Origin: Prorocentrum cordatum
Lineage: Eukaryota; Sar; Dinophyceae; Prorocentrales; Prorocentraceae
Length of the DNA stretch: 64,000 nucleotides
Assembly (NCBI GenBank): GCA_963575745.1
Contig: CAUYUJ010015272.1
Coordinates: 271,789 to 335,788, forward strand
Direction of reading: 5' to 3'
The notes below the pieces were generated by a model. The model was not told the DNA's origin. It did no database searches and saw only the letters and a program-made list of their open reading frames with translations. This document shows, in pieces, positions 1-23,673 of this stretch. Position 1 is the stretch's first letter, and each line of letters opens with the position of its first letter. A program made the translations under genes and the position numbers.

Positions 1-3000
1 CCGTACACGGGCGTCTGCGGTGGCCGTGAGGTTAAGCGCGGCTGGAGCCGGCGCTGCCTCTGCGTTGATGTAACTCCCGACGAGCTTGAAGGAATCGACC
101 ACACGAAGGGGGCGCTCCGCCAGTGTGAGCTGGGTAACGGCGGCGTGAAGCTCGTCGGTGAGCGCCCACCCTGCCACTTTACCAGGGTGAATGCGTTGAC
201 CTGAGAATCGATCAAACTTGGCGGTTTCGTCAAGAGATTTCTGCAGCTCAGACGCGGTGTGGGTAGTGGAGTTGCTGTCGTCAACAAAGGTAGTGCTGAG
301 TGATCGAGGAACGTATCGAAGCTGCCTCTTTGTCCACACGCACATGAGCAGCTTGATGTCGTCCAGGGACCACGAGCTTCCCTGGAGGTGACCGTTAGTC
401 CTGGCCAAGTCCTTAGAGTACGCTCCGTTCGTGCGGATGTAGCGTTTGTGGTGTCTGTAGAAATTTCGGCGGACAGTAACGATGTCTTGAGGGCACCCCG
501 AGTGCAGCGCAAGGTTAAGGCAGATGTCCGTGATGAGGTAGTCGAAGCACTTCTGTCGGTCAAGGGCAGCTCCAGCTAAGGGGAGGAGTAAAGCCCTGGC
601 GTGTTCGATGCGCAGGGCGAGAGAGGTGCTGACATCCCCAATGGTGGCTTTGGGAACAGCGACGAAGCTCGTGGCATGGGTCCATCCTTGCCGCCAGGTC
701 GTGAGGCTACGGTAGGCTGGCGCTTCCCACGCGTACATCCAAACGGAAAGAACCGAGAGAAGTCGTTGGTCCGTCGGGAGTTCCCCTCGGCCTTTTCGGA
801 GGCGCGGGTTTGGCACGTGCAGGAGGGGCTCGGGGATGGTGCCAGTGCGTTGCATAGCACGTAAGACGCTGGCGAAGAGGCGAAGGATGTCGTAGGGTAA
901 CTCCTTAGCCTCCTTAGTTGTCCAGCCGTCGAGTCCCCCCGCGCGGCGCGGTGAACGGGTGCGAATGAAGTGGATGAGTTGGTCGTCGGTGAGGTGGAAA
1001 GGGGCTGCTGGTGATGGCGTAGGCAGCTCTTGTCGGTACTCGTCGTAGAAGTCTGCCCACGTCGGCATAGCTTCGGCGTCATGACCTGCGCGAGCGCGAT
1101 ACCTGCCCAAGATGGGTTCCCAGGTGTCGACCATGAGCTTAAGCATGTCTTTGGTATTGGCAACAATGGCGTTGGCGGGGAGGGCGTCGGGAACCTGGGC
1201 AGGTGGTGGGTCACGAGTGTGGCCTTCGTCGTTGTCAGTGTCGAGCGAACTACCGTCGCTGGGGCTGAAGCCGCCAGCGTCGGTGTCGGCATCACTATCG
1301 TCCGTGCAAGCTTGGTCAGGGTTGAAGGCGGTGGTGTCGCAGTGGAGCTGTGCATCGTCGGGAGTGGTAGGCGTGCGGAGATACGCCGTGGGCGAGCAGT
1401 CGGCAGCCCGTGCGTATATGGCCGCTTTTCGCCCGCTTGGCTCGCGGACACCCTCCGCCCAAATCTTAATACGTTCCGCTTTGACTCGGTTAGCACGTCG
1501 CGCCAGCTCTGAGTCAAGGTTTTGGATCAGACGGTCCAGGTGCTCTCCGCGTGGTGCTGGCACGTCGGGGGTCCAGGCCTCGGGAAAGGCCAGGAGGGCC
1601 GTGGGGCGCAGCTTGTGGCAGAGAAGGCGGGCCGCGGTCCACGTGCAGTCGTTGCGCTGCGCCAGGTACGGCGGGATAGCACGGCAGTCGATATGATGGT
1701 GCTGTCCGATGAAGCGAAGCTCGCAAAGTTGCCGATGGAGCTTGCGAAGGCGGTTCATGTGAATCGTGGAAGCTCCGTAGGTGGGAAAGGCGCGGGGGAC
1801 GGCGGGTCGCTCCTCGAACGTGGGTGTGAGCCCGTGCATGGTAGGGGCCTTCTTTTTTGGATGGTCTGGCGGTGGGGGCGGCAGGTCGCGCAGCCGGGTA
1901 AGATGGTACTCATGGCTGGCCTCGTTTGCCAGGGCGAACATGCGTTCCACATCGTCGCGTGTGTCAGCCTGCTCCATGCGGTCATGGTATCGCCCTGCGA
2001 TGAGGGTCCCTAGTGCCTGAAGTTCGTGGTCCTCATGAGCTCCGTCGTTAGGAGGGTAAGGCGTGGGGGCTAGAAGGCGTGGGGCCGTATGGTCGAGGCG
2101 GCTAAGGTCGAGAGTGACCTGCAGGCCAACATGGGATTTCGCTGGCAAGTCACGCAGATAGCAGAAGTCGGTGACGAGGGATCGCGCCGCTTGGTTGGCG
2201 ATGATATAATCGATGCGCGAAGTGCGGGGGCACTTGGTGACGCGGTCCCAGTCAGGGATGTTGCCATATGTGTGCATGGTGTGGTCCGGTGTGCCTTCAG
2301 CGACGTTAAACCATCCGTGCTGCATCATGTGCAGCAGGTGAGGATTGTCGTCGATGTTCGTGTTGGCGTCCATGCAAATGAAGTACGAGGCTGAGCCGAC
2401 CCTCGCGGCGGCACAGTCAGCAAGCCGAAACAAATCGGTGCTGTCTCCTCCAGCGACCCCGCAGAGGCTCGCAATGTAGATCCCAGCGGGCCCGTGGTTG
2501 TTTCGTCGCCGCCTGCGGCGGTGCTGGGTGCAGAGCGGGAGGAAGGCCTCGTGCCATCGTTTCTTGGCCTTGAGGGTGGCGATACAGGACGCAGTGTCGT
2601 CGACGGTGGAGTCGACGATGGCGTCCTTAGAGAGGATGGCGACCCCTCCCGAGGCTCCAGTGTTGCCCTCGACCGTGTGGTCCGTGCCACCGTGAGCAGC
2701 TTTGCGCTGGGCTCGCGCCAGATCCAGGTCAGGTCCCAGACTGGCCTTATATCCTCCGTGGTGTGGATTGGCGGCGTTGGTAGCGATGGCTTGCCTGGTA
2801 GGCTTGGCATGTCGGGTCTCCTGCAGTGCTATGACTGCGGCGTTGTGGTCGACACCTAGAGCGGTGATGGTTGGCCAGTTCGCTGGGAGACTCGTGATGT
2901 TGAGGCTGACGAGGTGGATGGAGCGACCTGGCCCGTCACCGTCGGTGGAGCTGGGGTTGGCACGCCCCGCACGGTGGAGGGCAGCCTGGCCCTCACCCAG

Positions 3001-3999
3001 GTAGAAAGCTTGGCCACAGTAGGAGCTCATGGCGTCGCAGCACATTGGCTTGGACGGGGCTGAAGCCGCCGTCAGGCCAGAAGTATAGGCAAGGCATGGT
3101 CGACACTGCGCCAGGGGGGGTTCATAAACATCGGCAAAACTGCCTCGAAAAATCCTCCTCACTCCTGTACCGTGGGGGACGGGGGGGGGAGAGGTGAGAC
3201 GGCAGCAGAGGGAGAGGGAGGCGACTCCTCGATCCGTCCTGCCGAAAACAAGAACAAAAGCAAACCAGCGGCGGCGGCTCGGCGCGGCAGCGGCGCAACG
3301 CGCGCGCATATACTGCGCGCGCGACACCGCTGGTCCGTCCTGCGGCGGCGCGCCCGCCCCGTCAGTAGCGTGATGAGCAGCATCGGGTGGAACAGCTCGA
3401 GCGGCGCGGTCGGTGGCCTGGCGCTGAGCCTCGTCCATGCCCGCTGCCGTGAGGCACGCGTTGCGGACAGGGCTGACTCCACGCGGGGCCGCCGCTGCCG
3501 CGGCAGCGGCTGCGGTGGCGGGGGCGCCGCCACGGCTCTGAGGAGAAAGCGGTGAGCCGCCGCCGAAGCCCGCCGCGAGGTCCTTGACGCGGTACTTGTT
3601 CTTGAAGGGGTCGAAGGTCGGCGCCTCGTCGATGGGGACGACAACGCGGGTGGGCGGTGGCAGCTCCTGGTCCGTGGACGGCGTCGGCTCGAGGTCGACC
3701 TGGCCAGGTTCGATGGCGCTGGCACCGAAGCGTGGCACCACCTCGGGGGCTTGGACATCAGCCTGAGTCTCGCGGGGCGGCGAGCTCGTGGAGCTCCCAG
3801 GGGCCTTGCGCGAGCTGTGGCGGCTGCAGGACCGGCTGCGCGGGACGCGCCCGCCCGTGTGGCGGTCGCGTGGCGAGGTCGCCTGGGCGTTAGCGCGCGC
3901 AGAGTCCGCCCTGCTCCTGCGCAGGGTGTTGGGCTGGGCTGGCGGGAGCCGCCTGTGCCGCCCGCCGCCGAGGCTGCAGCCTGGTCAGGGTCGACGGCG
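1..3999 (-). CDS. Endonuclease/reverse transcriptase ORF (partial, runs off window)
   Basis: The frame is open from just after a TGA at 4002-4000 down to base 1 (1333 codons); its first ATG that precedes recognisable domains is at 3438-3436. The endonuclease/exonuclease/phosphatase domain (about 2910-2090) shows SLNITSLP, ALQET, ICMDANTN, SRIDYI and KSHVGL, giving the expected Glu, Asp, Asp and His positions. A long linker follows. The RT (about 960-60) shows GGLDGW, LDRQKCFDYL (motif A), NGHLQGSSWS (motif B), FVDD (motif C) and a thumb-like SGQRIHPGKVAGW. Both catalytic centres look intact, so this frame has probably been under selection recently. It would nick target DNA and prime cDNA synthesis at the nick. 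Its N-terminal part overlaps the ORF at 3159-5171 in another frame; residues just after 3800 read much better here. Confidence 0.88.
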
Positions 4000-5171
4000 T
4001 CAGGGCGGGGGCTGACGTGGTGGGCACTACCCTCGCTGTGCCGCGGGGAGGCGCTGGGGTGCGCCTGGGTGTACGTGAGGACGAGCGGGACGAGCGGCTG
4101 CCGCTCGCGCTCAGGGGGGCCAGGTTTTGCCTGGGCAGGGCGCAGCGCTGCGGCCACGTTTGGCGGGGGCGTGTGTTGGCGCGGTTGCCGGGCACGCACG
4201 TTCGCCTCGCGCCATCCTTCAGGGCGCCCTGTCCTGCCTCGGCTGGGTGCAGCCCCCTGGGCTGAAGCCGCAGGGGTTACCACTGCGGGCTGGTAGCTAG
4301 CGGTGCTGTCATGGCGGCCTGGGTAATTTCCCCAGGCACGCGTGGACCCTGGCACGGGCGAGGTGGCCCGTGGGGGAGCCTGCACGCGTGCACGCGGGTA
4401 GCCGATGACCGCTGGGTGCACCCTGGCGTGGGGGGCGTGGCCATAGCTGGAGGCGGCTGCTTCTGCCGCCGCGGGCCTGGCGCCAATGGGGCCACGGTGG
4501 TGGGTGGCTCCCCCGCCGTACACCGCGTTGTCGCCTGTCGGGACGCGCGCGGGAGAGCGGTTGCGGGGCGTGCTCGGCTGACCTGCGTCGCGTTGGTCGC
4601 GCTGCTGGGTGCGCTGCTGGTGCTGTTGGTAGCGCTGCTGGTCGGCTCTCGAGAGCGGGCGGGTGTCGGGGAGGATGGGCGGCACGTCGGGCCGCCGCCA
4701 GCACTGATAGACGTGCTCGAAGGCATGGTCTGGGTAAGTCTCCCCGACGGGTGAGTAGCGCCGTACATGCTCCACGTAGTCAATGTTCTGCGGCTCGGGG
4801 AGCACCGTGATGTTCACAGCCCGCTGGTGCGCTGGTCCATAGAGACAGAAGCTACCACGGTTGCTGCGGTCGTGTTTCAGCTCGGCTTCGGTCGTGGCAC
4901 GGCTCACCATGGCGTCGCAGAGGCGCATGTCGTAGTCGAGGGCTTGAGGCCCAGGGCCGCCCTCGGCATCCCAGTACAGTACCACGTCTCGCCAGCGGGT
5001 GCGGGTAGTGTGGATGCGCTCGGCGATAGACTCGCAGACGGTCCTGACTGTGACACGATCCCTATGCATGTTGGTGATGGCTAGGGAGTAAGGTCGGCGG
5101 ACCGTTTTGTTGAAGATGAAGTCCTCCTTGGGGCCTGGTGAGGGCCGAAGAGCACGTAGCCTTCCCTCCAC
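3159..5171 (-). CDS. Pro/Arg-rich ORF of element 1 (N-terminal half credible)
   Basis: The frame has 670 codons. The first ~170 residues look like a folded protein (for example FNKTVRRPYSLAITNMHRD and RWRDVVLYWDAEGGPGPQAL); the middle is Gln-, Pro- and Arg-rich and probably disordered. Past about 3960 the frame becomes an Arg/Ser-rich shadow, while the sensible reading moves to the endonuclease/RT frame by a change equal to -1. The start ATG at 5171 lies inside the end of the upstream Cys-rich frame (110-base overlap). I do not recognise the family. It may be a nucleic-acid-binding linker of the element polyprotein. I infer that the true product either continues into the RT frame by frameshifting or was broken by an indel. 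Confidence 0.55.
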   Translation of the reverse strand: MEGRLRALRPSPGPKEDFIFNKTVRRPYSLAITNMHRDRVTVRTVCESIAERIHTTRTRWRDVVLYWDAEGGPGPQALDYDMRLCDAMVSRATTEAELKHDRSNRGSFCLYGPAHQRAVNITVLPEPQNIDYVEHVRRYSPVGETYPDHAFEHVYQCWRRPDVPPILPDTRPLSRADQQRYQQHQQRTQQRDQRDAGQPSTPRNRSPARVPTGDNAVYGGGATHHRGPIGARPAAAEAAASSYGHAPHARVHPAVIGYPRARVQAPPRATSPVPGSTRAWGNYPGRHDSTASYQPAVVTPAASAQGAAPSRGRTGRPEGWREANVRARQPRQHTPPPNVAAALRPAQAKPGPPERERQPLVPLVLTYTQAHPSASPRHSEGSAHHVSPRPDAVDPDQAAASAAGGTGGSRQPSPTPCAGAGRTLRALTPRRPRHATATRAGASRAAGPAAATARARPLGAPRARRPARLRLMSKPPRWCHASVPAPSNLARSTSSRRRPRTRSCHRPPALSSPSTRRRPSTPSRTSTASRTSRRASAAAHRFLLRAVAAPPPPQPLPRQRRPRVESALSATRASRQRAWTRLSARPPTAPLELFHPMLLITLLTGRARRRRTDQRCRARSICARVAPLPRRAAAAGLLLFLFSAGRIEESPPSPSAAVSPLPPPSPTVQE

Positions 5172-6579
5172 AGCGGTTGGTCGGGAGACGGGTCTTCAGG
5201 CATCCCCGTTCCTGTGAACCCTGGTGGCCGCCTCGTGCCGTCGGGCAATCCCTGCTTGAGGACGCGACGCGGCCTCGGTGGTAGATACCATTGACCTTGG
5301 TAACCTGCTTGGCCTGGTTGTGGAGGCTCCCCCCGGGGCCTGAAGGCGCTCGGGGGGGTTCCTTGAGGTCGTGCTGGGCTGGCGCGTTGCCGTATTGGCG
5401 GGCGAGGATGTGCGGAGGCATCCCTGTGGCACGGACGTCGAACAGGCTGTGCGGACGAGGCGGATGAGGGCATCTGCTGGAGAGGCAGCATGTGTCGGAG
5501 TCCCGGTTGTCGGTGCTGTACGCACACGTCCAGCTGTTGCAAGAGTAGTCCGTGGACCAGTCCATAAGTGCACGTAGTCCGCTGAGGGAGCAGTCTGGGC
5601 ACGTTGGGTGGCCCGAGGTGCCGAGCTGCGTGTTGCTGCGGGCCGCACAGTACTGACAGCATTGGAATCGGCACTGTAGGCATGTCCAGCGTCCTGGTAG
5701 GGGCGGGAGCGCTTGCTCGTTGGTGCCTGCGTCGTCTGGGTGGGGTCGGGGTCGATCCCACAAGGGCCAGACGTCGGCGAACCAGGACTGGCCTGTGGTG
5801 CGGACCACCTCAGCGGGGAGGCGAGCGTCGTCAGCATGGCGCTCGATCCACTGGGGCCCCAGGTCCGCTGGGATCATGACCGTGCGCCAAGTGTCGTCCG
5901 CCTTGACGTGGACTTGGGTCGGTGCCCAGAGCCTGGTAGTGGTATCGCCATGGTCGTGGCGGAGGATGACCCAGCCGTCGCGACCCGCAACCGCAGGGTC
6001 GATAACGCGGTGGCCCACGACGGTCGTCCCCCACGGTAAGTAGGCGCCGTCGTGGTGCTCGCCCGGGTCAAGCCAGACCTCGATGCCAGGGGCATTGACA
6101 CGGGCCCGCACATCGCGGACGGGGAAGGCAAGATAACAGTGGTGGCGGTCGGCTCCTACTCCGTCTCGATGGGCTCTCCACGTCTCGAGGTCGCTGTTGT
6201 CTTGTTCTTGTGTGTTTTGTGATTTTTGTTTCTGTGTTGTGTGGTTGCGTTGTGTTTGATGTTGTTTTTGCTTGTGGTTTGTTGTTGTTTTGTTTATGTT
6301 TTTTGTTTTTTTTGTTTGTTTTTGTGTTTGTACTGTTTTTTTGTTCTTTGTTTGTTTTATTGTTTTTTTTGTTTGTTTTGTATTTCTTGTTGTTGGTTTG
6401 TTTTTTTCTTTTGTCTTTTTTTTTCTTCTTTTTCTTTTTTTTGGCTTTTTTTTTTTTTTGGGTTTGGTTGTTGTTTCCGTGGGTTGTCTGTATTGTGTTT
6501 GTTTTTGTTTAGTTGTCCGAGGTGGAGTTTCCGCCGCTCTGCCGTGACGAACGCGAGGCAGATCGCCGTGGGCGAGCAT
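5062..6579 (-). CDS. Cys-rich ORF of element 1
   Basis: The 505-codon frame begins inside the A-rich spacer, whose first ~130 codons are a Lys/Thr/Gln run that I do not regard as protein. Credible protein starts near 6190 (for example LAFPVRDVRARVNAPGIEVW). Around residues 295-330 there is a Cys cluster (TCLQCRFQCCQYCAARS, then HPTCPDCSLSG), and a second around 345-370; the first resembles a zinc ribbon or RING-like site. Past about 5330 another frame reads better (GQWYLPPRPRRVLKQGLPDG), so an indel or frameshift is likely there. The family is unknown to me. The position between the A-rich spacer and the Pro/Arg-rich ORF suggests a zinc-binding, possibly RNA-binding, module of the element. 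Confidence 0.5.
   Translation of the reverse strand: MLAHGDLPRVRHGRAAETPPRTTKQKQTQYRQPTETTTKPKKKKKPKKRKRRKKKTKEKNKPTTRNTKQTKKTIKQTKNKKTVQTQKQTKKTKNINKTTTNHKQKQHQTQRNHTTQKQKSQNTQEQDNSDLETWRAHRDGVGADRHHCYLAFPVRDVRARVNAPGIEVWLDPGEHHDGAYLPWGTTVVGHRVIDPAVAGRDGWVILRHDHGDTTTRLWAPTQVHVKADDTWRTVMIPADLGPQWIERHADDARLPAEVVRTTGQSWFADVWPLWDRPRPHPDDAGTNEQALPPLPGRWTCLQCRFQCCQYCAARSNTQLGTSGHPTCPDCSLSGLRALMDWSTDYSCNSWTCAYSTDNRDSDTCCLSSRCPHPPRPHSLFDVRATGMPPHILARQYGNAPAQHDLKEPPRAPSGPGGSLHNQAKQVTKVNGIYHRGRVASSSRDCPTARGGHQGSQERGCLKTRLPTNRCGGKATCSSALTRPQGGLHLQQNGPPTLLPSHHQHA
6195..6510 (-). other. A/C-rich intercistronic spacer in element 1
   Basis: On the plus strand this ~315-base stretch is almost only T and G; on the sense (minus) strand it is A-rich with scattered C and T and almost no G. 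It starts right at the stop of the 1350-codon ORF and ends where credible protein sequence of the Cys-rich ORF begins. Such RNA would be nearly unstructured. It could be an internal poly(A) remnant from a joining event, or a leader allowing internal initiation or re-initiation. The sequence alone does not decide. Confidence 0.6.
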
Positions 6580-9500
6580 GGCCTCGGGCGAGGGCGGCGG
6601 CCGCGCTGATGAGGGACGGCGTACGGCGGTCGTCGGCTCCTGATGTCGTCGATGAGCGGTCTGGACTGTGTGCCAGGGCGGCGCCTGACTGGTAGGTGCG
6701 CGGTGGGCCAGACGCGGCCCCAGGGCTGGAGCCGCTGGGGCACGGCTCTCGTGCGTCGGACTGCCCCCGCACGGGGGCGGCTTGCAAGCCAGTGTACACC
6801 AGGTCGATCAGTGGCTGCGGGTCCAGCTGGAGCTTGCGAAGCGAGACGCGTGGACGGGGCTGGTTGGGGTCGGCCCTGGTGGCGGCTTCGGTGTCGTAGT
6901 GCTGCTTAGCCCATGCTCGCGCTGCCTCTGGCGAGTATAGTGCCTGCGGCGGTGGCCACGCTGCCGCGATGTCCAGCCTGCGCCAGGTGTTAGCTTCCTG
7001 GTCGCGGGCTTCAGCCGCCTCGCGGAGGTCTGGGTGATCGTAGCCAACGATGTGGAGGGCGTGCGCACAGTCGCCCATGCCATAGGCTTGTGGTAGGGCA
7101 CGGCACCTGGAGGCAGCTTCCGTGGGGGCACACCAGTCCATGCGGATGAGGAGGCCCAGGACCCGAGGGTAGATGAGGCGCGCTCCGTGGGCCTCCCCTT
7201 TCACGAAGTTGTGCCAGTTCTCACCGCGCGGCGGTTGGGTAGCCTCGCACATCCAGAGCGCGATGGGTCCCCACGCGAGGGTGTCGCCCTCGAGGTTGTA
7301 GGGCGGGTGAGGCGGCACTGCGTACCACGCGGCCAGCGACGGGTGCACACTCACGTACGTGCGGCCAACATTTGTGGCGGTTCGACCCTTCGCTTCACGG
7401 CGGGGGCCTGGCAGGAGGTGACCTCCGTTGAAAGCGAGACGAGCCGCAAGGTCGCCGCGGGTCCCGTGCCAGAAGACCGTGGGCGTGTCAGTGGTGGGTT
7501 GACGGAGGTCCCACGTGAGGTAGGGGAAGATCGTCTCGCCTGAGTTCCCGCCCGAGTCTTCCAGCACCCAAGTGAGTCGGTCCGGGGGCCTCTGCATGAT
7601 GTCAGTCCACGGCGCCAACGCTTGGAGCGTTGGATCATGGGTGAATCGAGGATGGTCGTGGAGCCGCAGGGCGTCTTTGATGTCCTCTGTAGTTACGCCA
7701 CTGTTACCAAGCGCAAAGCCGTTTTGGTACAGGGCGGTGAGGATGCTCGTCGGCGGCACGGGGACCGCTGGGTCGCGCTGGATGGTGTTGCGTAAGTTGC
7801 GCGTCGGTGGCCTGAGGGCTGGGTGGGGCGTACCAGGGCCTGGAGGCGCCTGGGGCCTGGCGGGTGATGCATAGCGTGCTCGCCGTCGTGGTGGTTGGGT
7901 GTCCATGTCGGAAGAGGAACCACGAGCATCTGCATGTCGGAAGATGGACCACGGGCTGTCGAGGGTGCGCTCACGTGTTTCCCTTGCCTCGGCGTCGCTG
8001 GCATGGGCTGTGGCGTCTTCGTGAGTCGGTGGGTTACCATAAGCCGCACCGCTTATGGGGCCGTCTCGCGGGGACGGGCTGGTCGATCGTGGTGTGACAG
8101 ACGAGGCTCGCGATACCGCGGCAGTGACTTCGACAATGGCGGCGGTGGTGGCGGTGGTAACGTCGGCGACCGCGGCGGCAACTGCAGCAGCATAGTGTTC
8201 CTGTAGCAGCGGGTGTCGAAGTGAGTGCACGTGCTGGCTCTCGGGTTCGTCGGGATGCGTGCGCGGCATTGTGTATGTGGCCTCGTCACGCGGCCTCCTG
8301 TTCGGTTGGCAACAGCGGAGGCACCACTGGGCCGTGGATGAGTCCAGGGCGCGCGCACAGATGCGGGCTCCTACGTGTCCGACGGCTCCTTGAGCGAGAA
8401 GTTTGGCGCCGACCAGAAGAAGACCGCACACCACTCCGCCAGTGGCAATGGCTCCGAGTTTGCCACTGGCCCATTTCAGGACACCCCCGAGGCCAGACCC
8501 GACTGCGCTGGCTCCGCCCGAGACGATATCTCTGAGTTTGGCGCTGGTCCACTTGAGAATACCCCACAGGGCGGGCGTGACGTTGTATGCCGTTGTGCGT
8601 CGGGGCGTAGTGGACACAGATGTGCCTGGTGCCGCCGCTTCACGTCGTCGTCGCTGCCGGTAGCTGGGGTCTCGGCTCGGTGTCGGCAAGTACCCGTCGA
8701 TCTGGTCCTTGTACGGCATGGCTACCACGATGGCATACGTGGCCACGAAGAGACAAATGAGACAGCCGCAGCGTCGGGAGGCCGCTGCGCTGTGCGGGGC
8801 CTCGTAGGAGCCGCTGGCGTCAGGGCTCGCGTCGTCGATGGGGTCGTTGTCGATGCCAGCCTGCCAGTGGTCGACGGCGCTGGAATTGGAGTCAGTCGCG
8901 TTAGCACGGCAGACAAGGGTGCGGGGCGTGGTTCTGCCACCTGAGGTCTGAAGCCGTCCAGATCCAGCCAATGCTGCAGCGGGGCTGAAGCCGCCACTGC
9001 GCGAGCTGGTTAGAGCTGGCGATGCAGTGGGATGGCTTGTCTCGTCGGCGGCAGTGGCGCCTTCAGCGTCGTTGAGCTGTACGCTGGGGTCGGCCTGGGC
9101 CGAGTTGTTGGGCGGACTGCTGTGCGACAGGGGGCGCCCTATGTAGGGTTCGCTGTCACGGTCACGCTGGGCCGTGTGACCTGGCGGTGCCGTGCCGTCG
9201 CGATCCTGGGTTTCCATGTCGTCCTGGCTATCGTCCGACGCGTGGAAAGAGTCTAGGGATATGTTGCTGATATCGCTGGCCGCGATGTGTTGGAGCAGAA
9301 GCGGTTCGGCGTCGGCCGCGGGCTGGTCACTCGTGGCGTGTTGGGCGAGGGGGCCAGCTGGCGGTGGTAGGTTTAGCGGTTCCATCGGTGCCGCGGCGAG
9401 CTCCGCCTCGACAAGCGGCTGCATGTCTGGCGGGTGGTGCAGGATCGCATCCGCGAGGTACGCCAGGGCGTCTTGGTCGGGTGGAGGGAGGCCTCTTGGC

Positions 9501-10561
9501 AGCAAGGCGTGGGCCCGTGAGAGGTATGGCGGCAATGGTGCCGTGAAAGCCTCAGGGCCGACGAGCTGGGCACGAGCGCCCTGGTATTCCAGAAGGAGGC
9601 CAAAGTAGCGGGTGGGGTACTCGCGGCTGCCCTGGATACGAGTGAGGTTGCGGTTGGTGCGCTGTCTGTCGGGGCCCGCTCTGTGCCAGATGTCCTCGCA
9701 CATGTCGAACGCGGTGCGCTGGCGCAGGGCGTCGTTTTTCTCCTCGGAATCCTCCTGGAAAAAGTGGTCGTACTGTGGCAGATGGAGCGTCGCCAGGATG
9801 TACGGGACGCAGTCCTCGAGCCATGCCCAGAACACGTCCTGATGGTCCTCACCTGGTGCCCACGCCGCGGCGCACGGTATGAGCCGTGCTCGGATCATCA
9901 TCAGGTGCCAGAAAGCGGGGTCCTCCTCGGGTTCGCCCCTGGCGCACAGAGGGGTAGTGAGACCCGTGGGGCTAAAGCGGGGCACGACAGCGGGGCTGAA
10001 GCCGCCACTGCGTGCCTGGGCCTTGTCAGCGGCCCCGTCGAGGATGTGCTGCACGACGGTCGAGGACAAGCTGAGGACGGACTGCGATGCATGTGTCGTA
10101 GTTGACGAGGACGTGCTCGTAGGAGACATGCTGGTACTCGCCGTAGCCGTCGTAGTAGCCGTCGGAGTCCCAGGGGGGCAACGCGTGGGGCAGGGCCCCT
10201 GGTGCTGCTCAAGCCAGGCGCTCGCGATGGCGCCCAGCGGCCCGTTGCCGCACGGACCCGCGGCGGCGGTGCTGTTCACGATCGGGTCCAAAATGGCGCA
10301 GTGATCGTATTTGTAGATGCTGTCATCGCAAAGGTAGAAGAGCGTCCCACGTTCAGCGTGTCGCAGGAAAACCTCTCCTCCATGCTGGGGCGCACCGCCT
10401 GAAGACGGGTGTGCTCCAGCTAGCGAAGGGAGGGCCAGGCTGCAGGCAAGGCGCCACATGATGGCGAGGCCTGGCGGGCGGCGCGAGCGATGAGCCGAAA
10501 GCTGCATGTCAGCACACGTCCTCAAATACCCCTGAATGCTCATGTACATTGCTACAATCAC
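6509..10561 (-). CDS. 1350-aa membrane-type ORF with ADP-ribosyltransferase-like C-terminus
   Basis: This is the longest complete ORF in the window. An internal Met near residue 36 begins MWRLACSLALPSLAGAHP, a plausible signal peptide; an ATG at 10561 also exists. Residues ~30-420 contain Cys- and Trp-bearing, folded-looking sequence. A hydrophobic segment lies near 598-615 (CLICLFVATYAIVVAM), followed by two related 17-residue units (GILKWTSAKLRDIVSGG and GVLKWASGKLGAIATGG) and a second hydrophobic stretch near 705 (VVCGLLLVGAKLLAQ). Near 1031-1081 the pattern FWHGTRGDLAARL ... GRTYVSVHPSLAAWYAV recalls the H-G-T and Y-x-S elements of PARP/RNA 2'-phosphotransferase folds. GGFSP is encoded twice, at hairpin sites. 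I infer a surface or membrane protein of the element with an ART-like domain. It is also possible that this was once a host gene. Confidence 0.65.
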   Translation of the reverse strand: MIVAMYMSIQGYLRTCADMQLSAHRSRRPPGLAIMWRLACSLALPSLAGAHPSSGGAPQHGGEVFLRHAERGTLFYLCDDSIYKYDHCAILDPIVNSTAAAGPCGNGPLGAIASAWLEQHQGPCPTRCPPGTPTATTTATASTSMSPTSTSSSTTTHASQSVLSLSSTVVQHILDGAADKAQARSGGFSPAVVPRFSPTGLTTPLCARGEPEEDPAFWHLMMIRARLIPCAAAWAPGEDHQDVFWAWLEDCVPYILATLHLPQYDHFFQEDSEEKNDALRQRTAFDMCEDIWHRAGPDRQRTNRNLTRIQGSREYPTRYFGLLLEYQGARAQLVGPEAFTAPLPPYLSRAHALLPRGLPPPDQDALAYLADAILHHPPDMQPLVEAELAAAPMEPLNLPPPAGPLAQHATSDQPAADAEPLLLQHIAASDISNISLDSFHASDDSQDDMETQDRDGTAPPGHTAQRDRDSEPYIGRPLSHSSPPNNSAQADPSVQLNDAEGATAADETSHPTASPALTSSRSGGFSPAAALAGSGRLQTSGGRTTPRTLVCRANATDSNSSAVDHWQAGIDNDPIDDASPDASGSYEAPHSAAASRRCGCLICLFVATYAIVVAMPYKDQIDGYLPTPSRDPSYRQRRRREAAAPGTSVSTTPRRTTAYNVTPALWGILKWTSAKLRDIVSGGASAVGSGLGGVLKWASGKLGAIATGGVVCGLLLVGAKLLAQGAVGHVGARICARALDSSTAQWCLRCCQPNRRPRDEATYTMPRTHPDEPESQHVHSLRHPLLQEHYAAAVAAAVADVTTATTAAIVEVTAAVSRASSVTPRSTSPSPRDGPISGAAYGNPPTHEDATAHASDAEARETRERTLDSPWSIFRHADARGSSSDMDTQPPRRRARYASPARPQAPPGPGTPHPALRPPTRNLRNTIQRDPAVPVPPTSILTALYQNGFALGNSGVTTEDIKDALRLHDHPRFTHDPTLQALAPWTDIMQRPPDRLTWVLEDSGGNSGETIFPYLTWDLRQPTTDTPTVFWHGTRGDLAARLAFNGGHLLPGPRREAKGRTATNVGRTYVSVHPSLAAWYAVPPHPPYNLEGDTLAWGPIALWMCEATQPPRGENWHNFVKGEAHGARLIYPRVLGLLIRMDWCAPTEAASRCRALPQAYGMGDCAHALHIVGYDHPDLREAAEARDQEANTWRRLDIAAAWPPPQALYSPEAARAWAKQHYDTEAATRADPNQPRPRVSLRKLQLDPQPLIDLVYTGLQAAPVRGQSDAREPCPSGSSPGAASGPPRTYQSGAALAHSPDRSSTTSGADDRRTPSLISAAAALARGHARPRRSASRSSRQSGGNSTSDN

Positions 10562-10720
10562 GCCCCCTGCAAGACTACGGGTGTCCCTACACCAGATAGC
10601 TTGCGCGTGCTGCTGCCAAAACAGACATGAGGTGACAAGAAAGAGATACGACGCGAAGAGGGGAGAGATGCCTCTGAAGGCGCTTCCTCGGAGGGCTGAG
10701 GCGGGCTCTCTGAGGCACCT

Positions 10721-11443
10721 TCAATAGGGTTCCTGGGTGGCCCGACCCTTGTCCTTGCCTTTGTCGGCCCCTGGGGGCCCCGTCCTTGGGGTGACCTGGC
10801 CTGGCTGGTCGATCCAACCGCAGGCAGCCACGGGTTCGGCGGCCGCTGCAGCTTCCTCCTTCTTAGTTTCCAGAGTGGCCACTTGTGGCAGGTGGATGGT
10901 GCCTCCCGTGGGGTGCCCGAGGAGAGTCTGGATGTCGCCGCGCAGTGCAGCGGCGTCGGCGGTTGCCGTCTGTTGCTGGGTGACGACGGTGGCAAGCCCC
11001 CGTTCCAGCCCTGAAACGTGCTCCGTGAGTGTGGCCTGGGATGAGAGAACGCCCGCAAGCTGCACCTGCATGTTATCCACCGTGTTGGCTAGCAGCTCGT
11101 GCTGCTGTTCCATGTGCTGGATGCGGGTCGTGACAGCATCTGGCGGTTTAGAGGCCGATGCGAAGCGCTCGCCGAAGGTGTTGAGTTCGTGGGAGGCCAC
11201 GCTGTATTCATCACCTGATGAGAGGATCTCGACGTCGTCGACGTCGCCTGGTACTTCGGCGGCTGTGGCAGCGTCGCCTTCGGTGTGGCCCCCACCTTCT
11301 GCCGCCACCGTGCCAAGCCGAGGAGTCATGGCCACCTGATCCTGGGGCGGCCATCGGTTCAGCGGCTCCGTCCGTGCCGTGCGGGGGTGCAGAGGAGCTG
11401 CGGCCTGGGGCGCAGGGTGACCTTGCGTGCGGCGTGGCGTCAC
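10721..11443 (-). CDS. Coiled-coil C-terminal part of element 1 first ORF
   Basis: Within this 240-codon frame the credible region runs from about PAPQAAAPLHPRTARTEP to the stop. An acidic stretch (DVDDVEILSSGDEYSVASH) is followed by a long heptad-rich helix (for example EQQHELLANTVDNMQVQL and LTEHVSGLERGLATVVTQQQ), ending Lys-rich. Coiled coils are typical of LINE ORF1 and retroelement nucleocapsid proteins, where they drive trimer or oligomer formation. I infer that this continues the 13301-11874 frame through the two short segments at 12075-11686 and 11828-11211, so the protein is broken in this copy. It ends 160 bases before the 1350-codon ORF. Confidence 0.6.
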   Translation of the reverse strand: MTPRRTQGHPAPQAAAPLHPRTARTEPLNRWPPQDQVAMTPRLGTVAAEGGGHTEGDAATAAEVPGDVDDVEILSSGDEYSVASHELNTFGERFASASKPPDAVTTRIQHMEQQHELLANTVDNMQVQLAGVLSSQATLTEHVSGLERGLATVVTQQQTATADAAALRGDIQTLLGHPTGGTIHLPQVATLETKKEEAAAAAEPVAACGWIDQPGQVTPRTGPPGADKGKDKGRATQEPY

Positions 11444-11828
11444 GTTTCCCGCTGGAGGAGCGGTGGCGCTTGGCTGAAGGCTCCTCCTTGGGGATCAGGA
11501 GCGGTGCGACGCCCTTGCCTTTGGGCGTGGCAGTCATGAGGTCGTGGAGGTAGGGGCTCTGGGCCGCTTTGGTGAGGAGTGTGCCGGTGGCGGGGCTAAA
11601 GCCGCCACCACGGGCTGGCGGCGTCACAGGCTCTGTGATGGTGGTAGGCGTGACGATGGTAACGTTGTCCCGCTTCGGCACCACCTCAGCCAGCGGGGCC
11701 TCGGTGATGCTCCACGGGATGGGGCACCCCGCGACCTGTACCGTATAGGTGAGTGGGGGCCGATGGGCGCGCACTAAGGCAAACTGGGCCGCAGTGGCTG
11801 GGTCCCAGGCGGCTGTGGTAGACCTCAC
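11211..11828 (-). CDS. Middle segment of element 1 first ORF (frame 3 of 4)
   Basis: The frame reads sensibly from AAQFALVRAHRPPLTYTVQV through IVTPTTITEPVTPPARGGGF and on to GKGVAPLLIPKEEPSAKRHR, then degrades into an Arg-rich shadow of the coiled-coil frame at about 11440. It holds one GGFSP site, encoded by the hairpin at 11594-11604. It joins the preceding segment near 11830 by a single-base frame change. No domain is recognised. Confidence 0.45.
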   Translation of the reverse strand: MRSTTAAWDPATAAQFALVRAHRPPLTYTVQVAGCPIPWSITEAPLAEVVPKRDNVTIVTPTTITEPVTPPARGGGFSPATGTLLTKAAQSPYLHDLMTATPKGKGVAPLLIPKEEPSAKRHRSSSGKRDATPHARSPCAPGRSSSAPPHGTDGAAEPMAAPGSGGHDSSAWHGGGRRWGPHRRRRCHSRRSTRRRRRRRDPLIR

Positions 11829-12075
11829 AGTCCCATTTAACGGACGGGCCCGTGAGAGTCTTGGCGAGCTGGGTCAGCGTGGCGTGACGTGCCGCAATGC
11901 CAGTGATGCGGTAGCGCGTCTTGGCGAGGGTAGCCTCGCAGCCACGGATGCTGACAGCAGCAGCCTTGGCGACGTCGGACCCCCGTGGAACACGGATCCC
12001 CAGTAGGCCTGACTTGCCGTGCCTGACGACTCCCAGGGCCTTGAACTCCACCGACTTCTGGAACGCGTCTGCCAT
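11686..12075 (-). CDS. Short segment of element 1 first ORF (frame 2 of 4)
   Basis: The reading MADAFQKSVEFKALGVVRHG and ATLAKTRYRITGIAARHATL is protein-like down to about 11830; beyond that it is a shadow of the next segment. Upstream in the same frame, SDRWFPEDQPIT links naturally to ADKYQT of the 13301-11874 frame near 12105, which implies a one-base change at that point. I recognise no family. It is listed separately because the break is informative. Confidence 0.45.
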   Translation of the reverse strand: MADAFQKSVEFKALGVVRHGKSGLLGIRVPRGSDVAKAAAVSIRGCEATLAKTRYRITGIAARHATLTQLAKTLTGPSVKWDCEVYHSRLGPSHCGPVCLSARPSAPTHLYGTGRGVPHPVEHHRGPAG

Positions 12076-13301
12076 CGTGATGGGCTGGTCCTCAGGGAAC
12101 CAACGGTCTGATACTTGTCGGCGGTGGGCTCGTCTGCACCTACGTTGCTGAGGTCGTAGGTGGCACCGAGTTGCCCTGATCCCGCCAGGACCTTGTCGAC
12201 CGCTTGAAGACTGACGCCGAAGGTGGCAGCCAGGGACCTCTTTCCGACGCCCGATCCAAACCTGCCTAGGCTTTTGCAGGGTTCGAGGATGGTGACGGCT
12301 TTAAAGTTGCCGTGGAAGAGGGCCTTGAAGGTGTCCTGAAGCTGACTATCGAGCTCCTGGCGGCGAGCGTATTTCTTGGACTCCCTGTGCTTTGGGTTTT
12401 GGCGCGCCTTGTCCTGTGGGGCAGAGTCCCCTCGAAAAGGGCCCTTGGCGCGTGGACCACCGTTCACGGGGGCACCTCCCGAGAACTGGTCCTCGAAGGC
12501 CTGGTGCATGGAGGGGACTGCGGCATTGGCCTCGGTCTCGTGTATGGTCGCCCGAATCCAGCAGACGTGGTCGGCAGGGTCGATGGTGGCGACGGCTACC
12601 TTTTCCGTGCAGGCGACCTCCTTGGTGCCCAGCTGGTACACGGTCACGGGGACGTGCGTGTGGACCACTTTGGGCGCCTTGGGGTGACGCTTCAGGACGG
12701 GGACGGCGAGCTCGGTGCCGACGTAGTTGTCGTTTTTTGGGCCCATGACAGCAATCGCGAGCTGACCCGTGGTTCGCTTGCCCTGCTCGAGGTGGTGTTG
12801 CAGCAGCCGTTCACCGCTCTCGTAGTCGTGGAGGCTGATACTGGGCTTGTACGTCTTGCCGTCGTCAGGAGATGTGGGTTCGGCGAGGACAGGGACCTTC
12901 CAACAGGCCGGGTCCAAGGCGATGAATTGGGTGTCCGCAGCCTGAAGACGTGCGGACCCAGCTGGTGGGTGTGATGTGTCACCGCCAATGCGCTTAGGCT
13001 TGCTGCGCTGGTGATGATCAAGCGTGTAGCTGATCTGGTTGGCGGCGCACATGCGGATCAGGGCGCTGCCAAGCTTCTTCGTGTTGGACTTGTGCATGTC
13101 GTACGTTGCCTGGAGCTCGTCTGCGTTCAGTTCGGCAAGCCCGTTGTATGCGGCCGTGGGGCGGTCAGACCCCGCTTGCTTGAACGCTGCGATGCAGTCC
13201 TGCTTGCGTTGAAGAAGAGACCCTTCAGCAGCAGGGCGCGTGGGACGGGTACTCGGAGGCTGCTTAGAAGAGCGACGGCGCTCCGGCTTCTTGGGGGCCA
13301 T
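11874..13301 (-). CDS. N-terminal part of element 1 first ORF (nucleocapsid-like)
   Basis: The 475-codon frame starts at an ATG just inside the 5' boundary of the element. A Lys/Arg/Pro-rich N-terminus (MAPKKPERRRSSKQ) precedes a soluble, globular-looking region of ~380 residues (for example LDPACWKVPVLAEPTSPDDG and VHTHVPVTVYQLGTKEVACT). The last ~80 codons, after ADKYQT, are a shadow of the next frame. The basic N-terminus and 5' position fit an RNA-binding ORF1 or Gag-like role, which is inference. There is no CCHC knuckle. No spliced leader is visible upstream. Confidence 0.6.
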   Translation of the reverse strand: MAPKKPERRRSSKQPPSTRPTRPAAEGSLLQRKQDCIAAFKQAGSDRPTAAYNGLAELNADELQATYDMHKSNTKKLGSALIRMCAANQISYTLDHHQRSKPKRIGGDTSHPPAGSARLQAADTQFIALDPACWKVPVLAEPTSPDDGKTYKPSISLHDYESGERLLQHHLEQGKRTTGQLAIAVMGPKNDNYVGTELAVPVLKRHPKAPKVVHTHVPVTVYQLGTKEVACTEKVAVATIDPADHVCWIRATIHETEANAAVPSMHQAFEDQFSGGAPVNGGPRAKGPFRGDSAPQDKARQNPKHRESKKYARRQELDSQLQDTFKALFHGNFKAVTILEPCKSLGRFGSGVGKRSLAATFGVSLQAVDKVLAGSGQLGATYDLSNVGADEPTADKYQTVGSLRTSPSRWQTRSRSRWSSRPWESSGTASQAYWGSVFHGGPTSPRLLLSASVAARLPSPRRATASLALRHVTPR

Positions 13302-13469
13302 TGCTGCGGGCGCTCTGGTGAGGGGAGGTGACGCGAATCAGTAGGGTCCTGCTGGGACCCCTCCGGTCTCGCGAGGCCTGGGAGTCTGACTCCGAGGCGG
13401 GGCGCTTCGCGTCGCGGCTGCGGTCTGAGTGCAGAGCACTCTCGAGCCGATCAGGAGGATAGAGAGCTG

Positions 13470-23652: not shown

Positions 23653-23673
23653 CTTGAGCCAAAATGGCTACGG
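23653..23673 (-). other. Dinoflagellate spliced-leader sequence (relict in retrocopy)
   Basis: Read on the minus strand, all 21 bases match the conserved trans-spliced leader of dinoflagellate mRNAs (ending TTTTGGCTCAAG). It sits directly upstream of ORF1 of element 2 in the same orientation. No leader-RNA gene body or Sm site follows, so it is a copy acquired through an mRNA, not a leader gene. Confidence 0.93.

Follow-up and report, generated by a model that had tools for sequence, protein, structure and literature searches.

The 64,000-nucleotide stretch of Prorocentrum cordatum DNA analysed here (contig CAUYUJ010015272.1, positions 271,789 to 335,788; hereafter the window) carries on its minus strand, from position 1 to about 13451, most of one element resembling a long interspersed nuclear element (LINE), in which a small hairpin with a constant loop and a variable stem recurs about every 1.1 kb. 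Each element has 15 of these hairpins at fixed positions and in one orientation, of which three (a to c) lie left of the window and twelve (d to o) inside it. On balance, the hairpins appear to act in cis as RNA signals dispersed along a LINE-type retroelement, bound by a protein and serving ribonucleoprotein (RNP) assembly or selective mobilisation. In such a system, a putative protein, encoded by the LINE or supplied by the host, would bind the loop and a bulged base at every site and would turn the full-length sense transcript into a regular, beaded RNP, which in turn would mark the RNA of the LINE, and that of a partner element designated X, as templates for reverse transcription from a shared 3' tail. 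Protein-binding sites are proposed because a constant loop and bulge sit on a freely varying paired stem, are repeated, have frozen synonymous positions and are present in X.

The original prediction, made from the letters of the window, had described twelve hairpins confined to this one element, and within the window both points were borne out. With the relaxed core pattern GSCTRRAG[GCA]CG, 12 matches are found on the plus strand between positions 1 and 13300, with none reversed, and there are none in the 50.7 kb from 13301 to 64000, as against a mean of 0.35 cores (maximum 2) in 300 dinucleotide shuffles. All 12 have at least four of five arm pairs, where the shuffles gave a mean of 0.003 such armed cores (maximum 1). 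The core had been placed on the plus strand, where the matches do lie, but the frames of the element run on the minus strand and the RNA form is the complement. Read from the left, and all on the minus strand, the sites are d (35..55, core 40-50), e (1257..1279, core 1263-1273), f (3053..3073, core 3058-3068), g (4254..4276, core 4260-4270), h (5331..5355, core 5338-5348), i (6717..6741, core 6724-6734), j (7833..7853, core 7838-7848), k (8976..9000, core 8983-8993), l (9987..10011, core 9994-10004), m (10390..10414, core 10397-10407), n (11587..11611, core 11594-11604) and o (12933..12957, core 12940-12950). The twelve are not the full set, since the element extends about 3.0 kb further left with three more sites.

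Beyond the window, strict hairpins were counted in 278,501 bases, where 123 fall inside the LINE or X and none in the 116,417 bases outside them. A covariance model recovers the 12 window hairpins at E values of at most 1.6e-4 and nothing below E 0.2 in the rest of the window; as the twelve belong to the 19 hairpins on which the model was trained and match by construction, the informative part of this result is the empty remainder. No Rfam family matched the window at gathering thresholds. A 15-mer form of the core pattern was matched by 115 stretches of viral contigs, 80 of them listed. Of 136 core occurrences in the loci examined, 4 (3 distinct) have six-pair arms, and in the remaining 132 the arms have at most 4 pairs.

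On the sense strand the hairpin has the form arm-C-GSC-UYYA-GSC-arm', with a bulged C, three pairs (the middle one also U-G) and a UYYA loop above a variable lower stem of 5-7 bp, and all 19 hairpins considered (15 of the LINE and 4 of X) fold with this common core. The claim that core positions 2 and 9 change together stands, this middle pair being G-C at 13 of the 19 sites, C-G at 3 (h and j among them) and U-G at 3 (including m and o). The arms covary as well: standard pairs fill 93.2% of 190 cells over the 19 sites, compared with 61.8% when the 3' letters are shuffled and 35-51% when they are slid, and the covariation score of 0.733, against 0.161, is reached in 0 of 500 shuffles, although the 19 hairpins are not all independent, a being related to i, and k, l and n to one another and to one X site. 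The arms had been described as complementary over 5-9 bp, which is true of 7 of the 12 window sites in the form of 5-7 contiguous Watson-Crick pairs, while at the other 5 a wobble or mismatch interrupts them.

Sister copies of the element in the 4.13-Gb genome (21,875 contigs) were surveyed in twenty 10-kb stretches from eight contigs, 18 picked at one hairpin type and two adjoining the window. Site identity and order are constant across these stretches, and 124 of their 136 core matches have at least four of five arm pairs. Divergence was counted against the window copy for 1 to 12 fetched copies per site, using only alignments that extend at least 35 nt into both flanks, and differences were found in 25 of 1243 core cells, 41 of 1380 arm cells, 461 of 3390 cells in the next 15 nt and 1773 of 15317 flank cells. 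Hairpins thus differ by 2-3% and flanks by 12-14%, making the hairpins about five times more conserved. At 14 of 15 sites the hairpin diverges less than the sequence around it, the exception being f, the least conserved site. At third codon positions of the 12 window sites, 17 of 599 cells (2.8%) differ inside hairpins versus 784 of 4339 (18.1%) outside; first and second positions differ by 2.5% and 2.0% inside and by 7.8% and 7.3% outside. This pattern indicates that the frame is real and constrained, yet that the hairpins are held by something besides the protein, as had been argued for selection on a folded strand. That selection acts on nucleotides, and that the hairpins are conserved, is well supported.

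A conserved protein motif has likewise been considered, GGFSP being encoded at 4 of the 12 window sites (1263, 8983, 9994 and 11594), but the remaining sites are in another codon phase and the third codon positions are frozen. Together with the shuffles (mean 0.003 versus 12 observed) and the covariation, these positions refute both a protein motif and chance, to which we assign a negligible probability. Frameshift, readthrough or splice marks, some of which had been offered as functions, are not supported either: the five sites in the frame 10561-6509 occupy two codon phases, and an uninterrupted sister frame of 2,940 codons in contig C21 (27575-36395) runs through at least six sites, six strict ones among them.

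Which strand carries the signal was approached through pair variants in 119 aligned site-copies, after 19 others, including 9 from site h, had been set aside for gaps close to the hairpin. Among single-sided variants, 5 are of the sense G-U type and 0 of the A-C type, and several others break a pair; in this small sample the bias points to sense RNA. This bears on the proposal that the hairpins are a DNA-level signal, a cruciform or the site of a DNA-binding protein acting in replication, recombination of tandem copies or chromatin, for which perfect palindromic arms and the tandem copies of the element could be cited. The fixed orientation and asymmetric bulge fit a single strand better, and the five G-U variants, few as they are, keep their pair on the sense strand only, which leaves a DNA-level role very improbable.

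The spacing of the hairpins is much more regular than random. For the 12 window sites the coefficient of variation (CV) is 0.27 (P = 2.5e-5 versus uniform placement), and for all 15 sites, with an insert private to the window copy removed, it is 0.36 (P 8.5e-5); when two close doublets are merged, a choice made after the gaps had been seen, the CV falls to 0.16, a value reached in 0 of 200,000 trials.

Rickettsia palindromic elements are mobile palindromes found inside the coding frames of many genes, and the original prediction had drawn this parallel, suggesting a mini-mobile hairpin that inserts into the element. Not all arms are in fact unrelated from site to site: those of 8983, 9994 and 11594 share GTGGCGGCTTYAGCCCCGC, a run of 19-25 nt, the identical wobble included, is common to k, l, n and one site of X, site b and one X site have about 40 nt in common, and i (6724) has a homologue in site a, beyond the left edge. 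In favour of the parallel, then, a few hairpins have been copied from place to place inside an element or from one element to the other, and many sites lie within low-constraint linkers. When sister copies were checked for clean insertion, however, no empty site was found among 127 site-copies (a count that takes in the 15 of the window copy itself), and the hairpins are frozen relative to their flanks. Their single orientation, their even spacing and the absence of strict hairpins from the 116,417 bases that belong to neither element also speak against insertion, as does the metagenomic relative P0006, which is without a hairpin at site d yet of equal length. Mini-mobility is therefore improbable, and the hairpins differ from the Rickettsia elements in keeping fixed places in two element families, with no empty sites in the copies read. 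Among 18 further fetched pieces site l is present in 17, locus L161 being without the hairpin. At site j of one copy in contig C1225 (L142), the core reads GCCTGAAGGC where other copies have GCCTTCAGGC, an in-place inversion of the loop such as flipping of the hairpin tip would leave.

Eleven metagenomic relatives (P0001-P0011) have been compared as proteins only, their DNA not being found in scans of viral contigs or genome contigs. Hairpin-compatible peptides are kept in place at e in P0001 and P0009 (GGFSP), at k, l and m in P0010 (GGFSP at k and l, AHPSSGGAP at m) and at l in P0011, where GGFSP forms an island within otherwise diverged sequence. These six, tested out of 23 core-compatible peptide positions in the relatives because they lie at orthologous hairpin sites, have flanking residues that permit arms of at least 5 pairs in 6 of 6 cases (product of chances 1.3e-5); four of the other 17 positions permit such arms too, so that core-compatible peptides alone are weak evidence. 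The pattern of presence and absence across the relatives indicates that lineages gain and lose sites, and that at d this apparently involved no insertion.

The host of the hairpins, predicted to be a dinoflagellate retroelement and confirmed as such, is about 16.5 kb long and ends about 3.0 kb beyond the left edge of the window, as judged by comparison with sister copies. Its order of endonuclease followed by reverse transcriptase is LINE-like, and it is best described as a LINE-like element, probably a non-LTR (non-long-terminal-repeat) retrotransposon of the apurinic endonuclease (APE) type. The APE-like endonuclease/exonuclease/phosphatase domain (2188..2853, minus strand; PF03372, E 2.4e-5) barely passes its cut-off, with 24.6 bits against 24.5. 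The reverse transcriptase region (1..1002, minus strand) runs off the left edge, with FVDD at about 277-288, and has nine metagenomic protein relatives at 54-88% identity; RVT_1 was matched in a sister copy only at E 0.038, under the Pfam cut-off, and no PDB match to the region was obtained by sequence or profile. A long query spanning endonuclease and reverse transcriptase returned no relatives and shorter queries did, and another large frame of the LINE has relatives in P0010 (71%) and P0011 (53%). Some copies have open frames of thousands of codons. Two further LINE families, with 34-51% identity in aligned stretches of at least 77 residues, contain neither an armed hairpin nor either of the end sequences in the 8.5 and 6.0 kb that were read.

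The element is present in high copy number, a 1.8-kb piece giving 1,409 first-look candidates, and 40 scored copies of that piece, the window's included, are 96-100% identical. Tandem copies are seen in contigs C21, C1225, C404, C514 and C2 (L126-L143), some separated by little beyond TC-rich tracts, and in C21 and C1225 the period is about 16.3-16.4 kb. The LINE 3' end reads ...CTACTTGTCCG and is followed by a TC-rich tract, after which the next tandem copy opens with TCTCGGCTCGAGAG. Eight leader starts were found in the fetched DNA (two rows being one place), six of them preceded by a (TC)n tract with a terminal AG, one by a stretch of N and one by a spliced-leader relic; the window copy's own ends are in TC-rich sequence that is less regular. 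The arrangement looks as if new copies insert into the tract that ends an older one, and target-site duplications would be hidden in such tracts. Among the few copies examined for 5'-truncation, the second copy in C514 starts at window position 942 and reaches the common 3' end. In the window, about 310 bp (6203-6511), A-rich on the sense strand, are skipped by the sister-copy alignments and look like a private insertion of this copy. The 5' leader (13288..13451, minus strand; first ATG at 13301) is common to the LINE and X.

Element X was located in contig C2 (406700 to about 413.6 kb) and in C578. Its 3' end is the LINE tail (371 bp, 88.8%), and its leader is the LINE leader in C578 and in 2 of 6 further 5' pieces (92% over 158 nt for those two), whereas the C2 copy has only the first 17 nt of the leader in common with the LINE. 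Three of the other 5' pieces start inside X just downstream of the leader, and one, L173, matches nothing. Beyond the shared ends, a BLAST comparison of the C2 copy with the LINE found similarity only over about 40 nt at one hairpin, and the frames of X, of 986 codons (C2) and 1,333 codons (C578), have no Pfam match. From this lack of a recognisable endonuclease or reverse transcriptase, we infer that X depends on the LINE. A probe from the body of X gave 535 candidates, with 40 scored copies at 96-100% identity.

The hairpins of X are in the sense orientation, as in the LINE, and are located at 407708, 409352, 409466 and 411544 in C2; five clear ones are present in C578, and both copies have weaker model matches in addition. 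Between C2 and C578 the four hairpins changed at 0, 0, 0 and 2 of 25 positions, and their flanks at 26/144, 9/186, 10/186 and 2/23. One hairpin is doubled 114 bp apart (C2:409352 and 409466), and the pair is kept in C578.

At locus L171, an exact junction connects the leader of X with a spliced-leader relic, CCGTGGCCATTTTGGCTCAAG, which shows that X RNA has been trans-spliced and then copied back; the (TC)n tract may be the pyrimidine tract of the trans-splice acceptor. Being trans-spliced, X RNA is handled as mRNA, which lends some weight to the alternative that the hairpins serve expression, a host factor using them to export, stabilise or translate a very long trans-spliced mRNA or to hide it from silencing, with the same holding for X. 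Even spacing along a long frame, conservation at the level of RNA and the presence of hairpins in X are also compatible with this. Against it, no strict hairpin occurs in 116,417 bases outside the LINE and X, two other LINE families included, a sample in which host genes were not surveyed. An expression role is judged rather unlikely.

The reading as signals for RNP assembly or mobilisation has its own difficulties. Pfam finds no RNA-binding domain and no coat or nucleocapsid protein in the frames scanned, and a single-sequence fold of the N-terminal 388 amino acids was uninformative (predicted local distance difference test, pLDDT, 35). The hairpin closest to the 3' end (a) still lies about 0.8 kb from it, and the fold energy of the hairpins has no sense-strand preference (10 of 19 hairpins). 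We infer the mobility of X in trans from its shared ends. Site d, which encodes PAPA in the reverse transcriptase frame, is coreless in P0003, P0006 and P0007 at nearly equal length, e is absent in P0002 and P0008, and k and m are absent in P0011; to judge from these proteins, individual sites are dispensable over time. The sister copies, and several of the hairpins, are moreover related to one another, and the cell counts of divergence are not independent events.

Of the functions that the original prediction had offered, which included frameshift signals, splice marks and a mini-mobile element, a packaging-type signal fits best. In its most specific form, proposed here tentatively and as less likely than not to hold in all its parts, this would be a non-viral packaging code, in which a protein encoded by the element reads the bulge and UYYA at about 15 evenly placed sites and forms a regular RNP from a 16-kb LINE RNA; the same code would carry the common-ended X, LINE and X together resembling a two-segment genome.

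Elsewhere in the window, outside the LINE, the exact 21-nt core of the dinoflagellate spliced leader, as printed in PMC2606063, occurs on the minus strand at 23653-23673 and identifies the host as a dinoflagellate; it may either be left over from an mRNA that was copied back into DNA or belong to a spliced-leader gene. From 13.5 to 64 kb there are many short-repeat arrays like CCAAGAGG/GGCCTCTTGG on both strands, as well as tandem arrays with units of 73 bp and 174 bp.

In an open-access library, the terms searched brought up no paper on hairpins like these in a LINE of a dinoflagellate, but several known systems are comparable in part. One such example is zebrafish ZfL2-1 and ZfL2-2, where a stem-loop in the 3' tail of the LINE RNA is recognised by a general stem and a specific loop (PMC4176376). 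In stringent systems of this kind, partners with a shared tail, such as short interspersed nuclear elements (SINEs), can be mobilised, and X shares the LINE tail here. The difference is that stringent LINEs are described there with one hairpin in the 3' tail, whereas about 15 internal hairpins are spread evenly over 16.5 kb of mostly coding sequence here, and that the partner X is multi-kilobase with an unrelated body. It is possible that another hairpin lies inside the LINE 3' tail. The packaging signals of MS2 have an (x)xYA loop and, 5' of it, a bulged A (PMC6281560), and like such RNA-virus signals the hairpins are many, dispersed and of one motif with otherwise variable sequence, in this case UYYA and a 5'-side bulged C. 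They differ in that the motif is much stricter, the spacing is more regular and the host is of LINE type, and neither a coat protein nor a particle was found. The introner elements of dinoflagellates have inverted repeats of 8-20 nt, searched for near intron ends (PMC10666404), and resemble these hairpins as inverted repeats spread in a dinoflagellate genome, but the hairpins are 21-25 nt long and lie within open frames.

Accounts of how a LINE chooses its own RNA, and of how parasites mimic that choice, usually come down to a single 3' hairpin or to cis-preference. The supposed signal described here, repeated about 15-fold per element in a high-copy family and present in an otherwise unrelated partner as well, makes binding, spacing and template choice directly testable, and if the reading proposed here is true, packaging-type signals would exist outside viruses.

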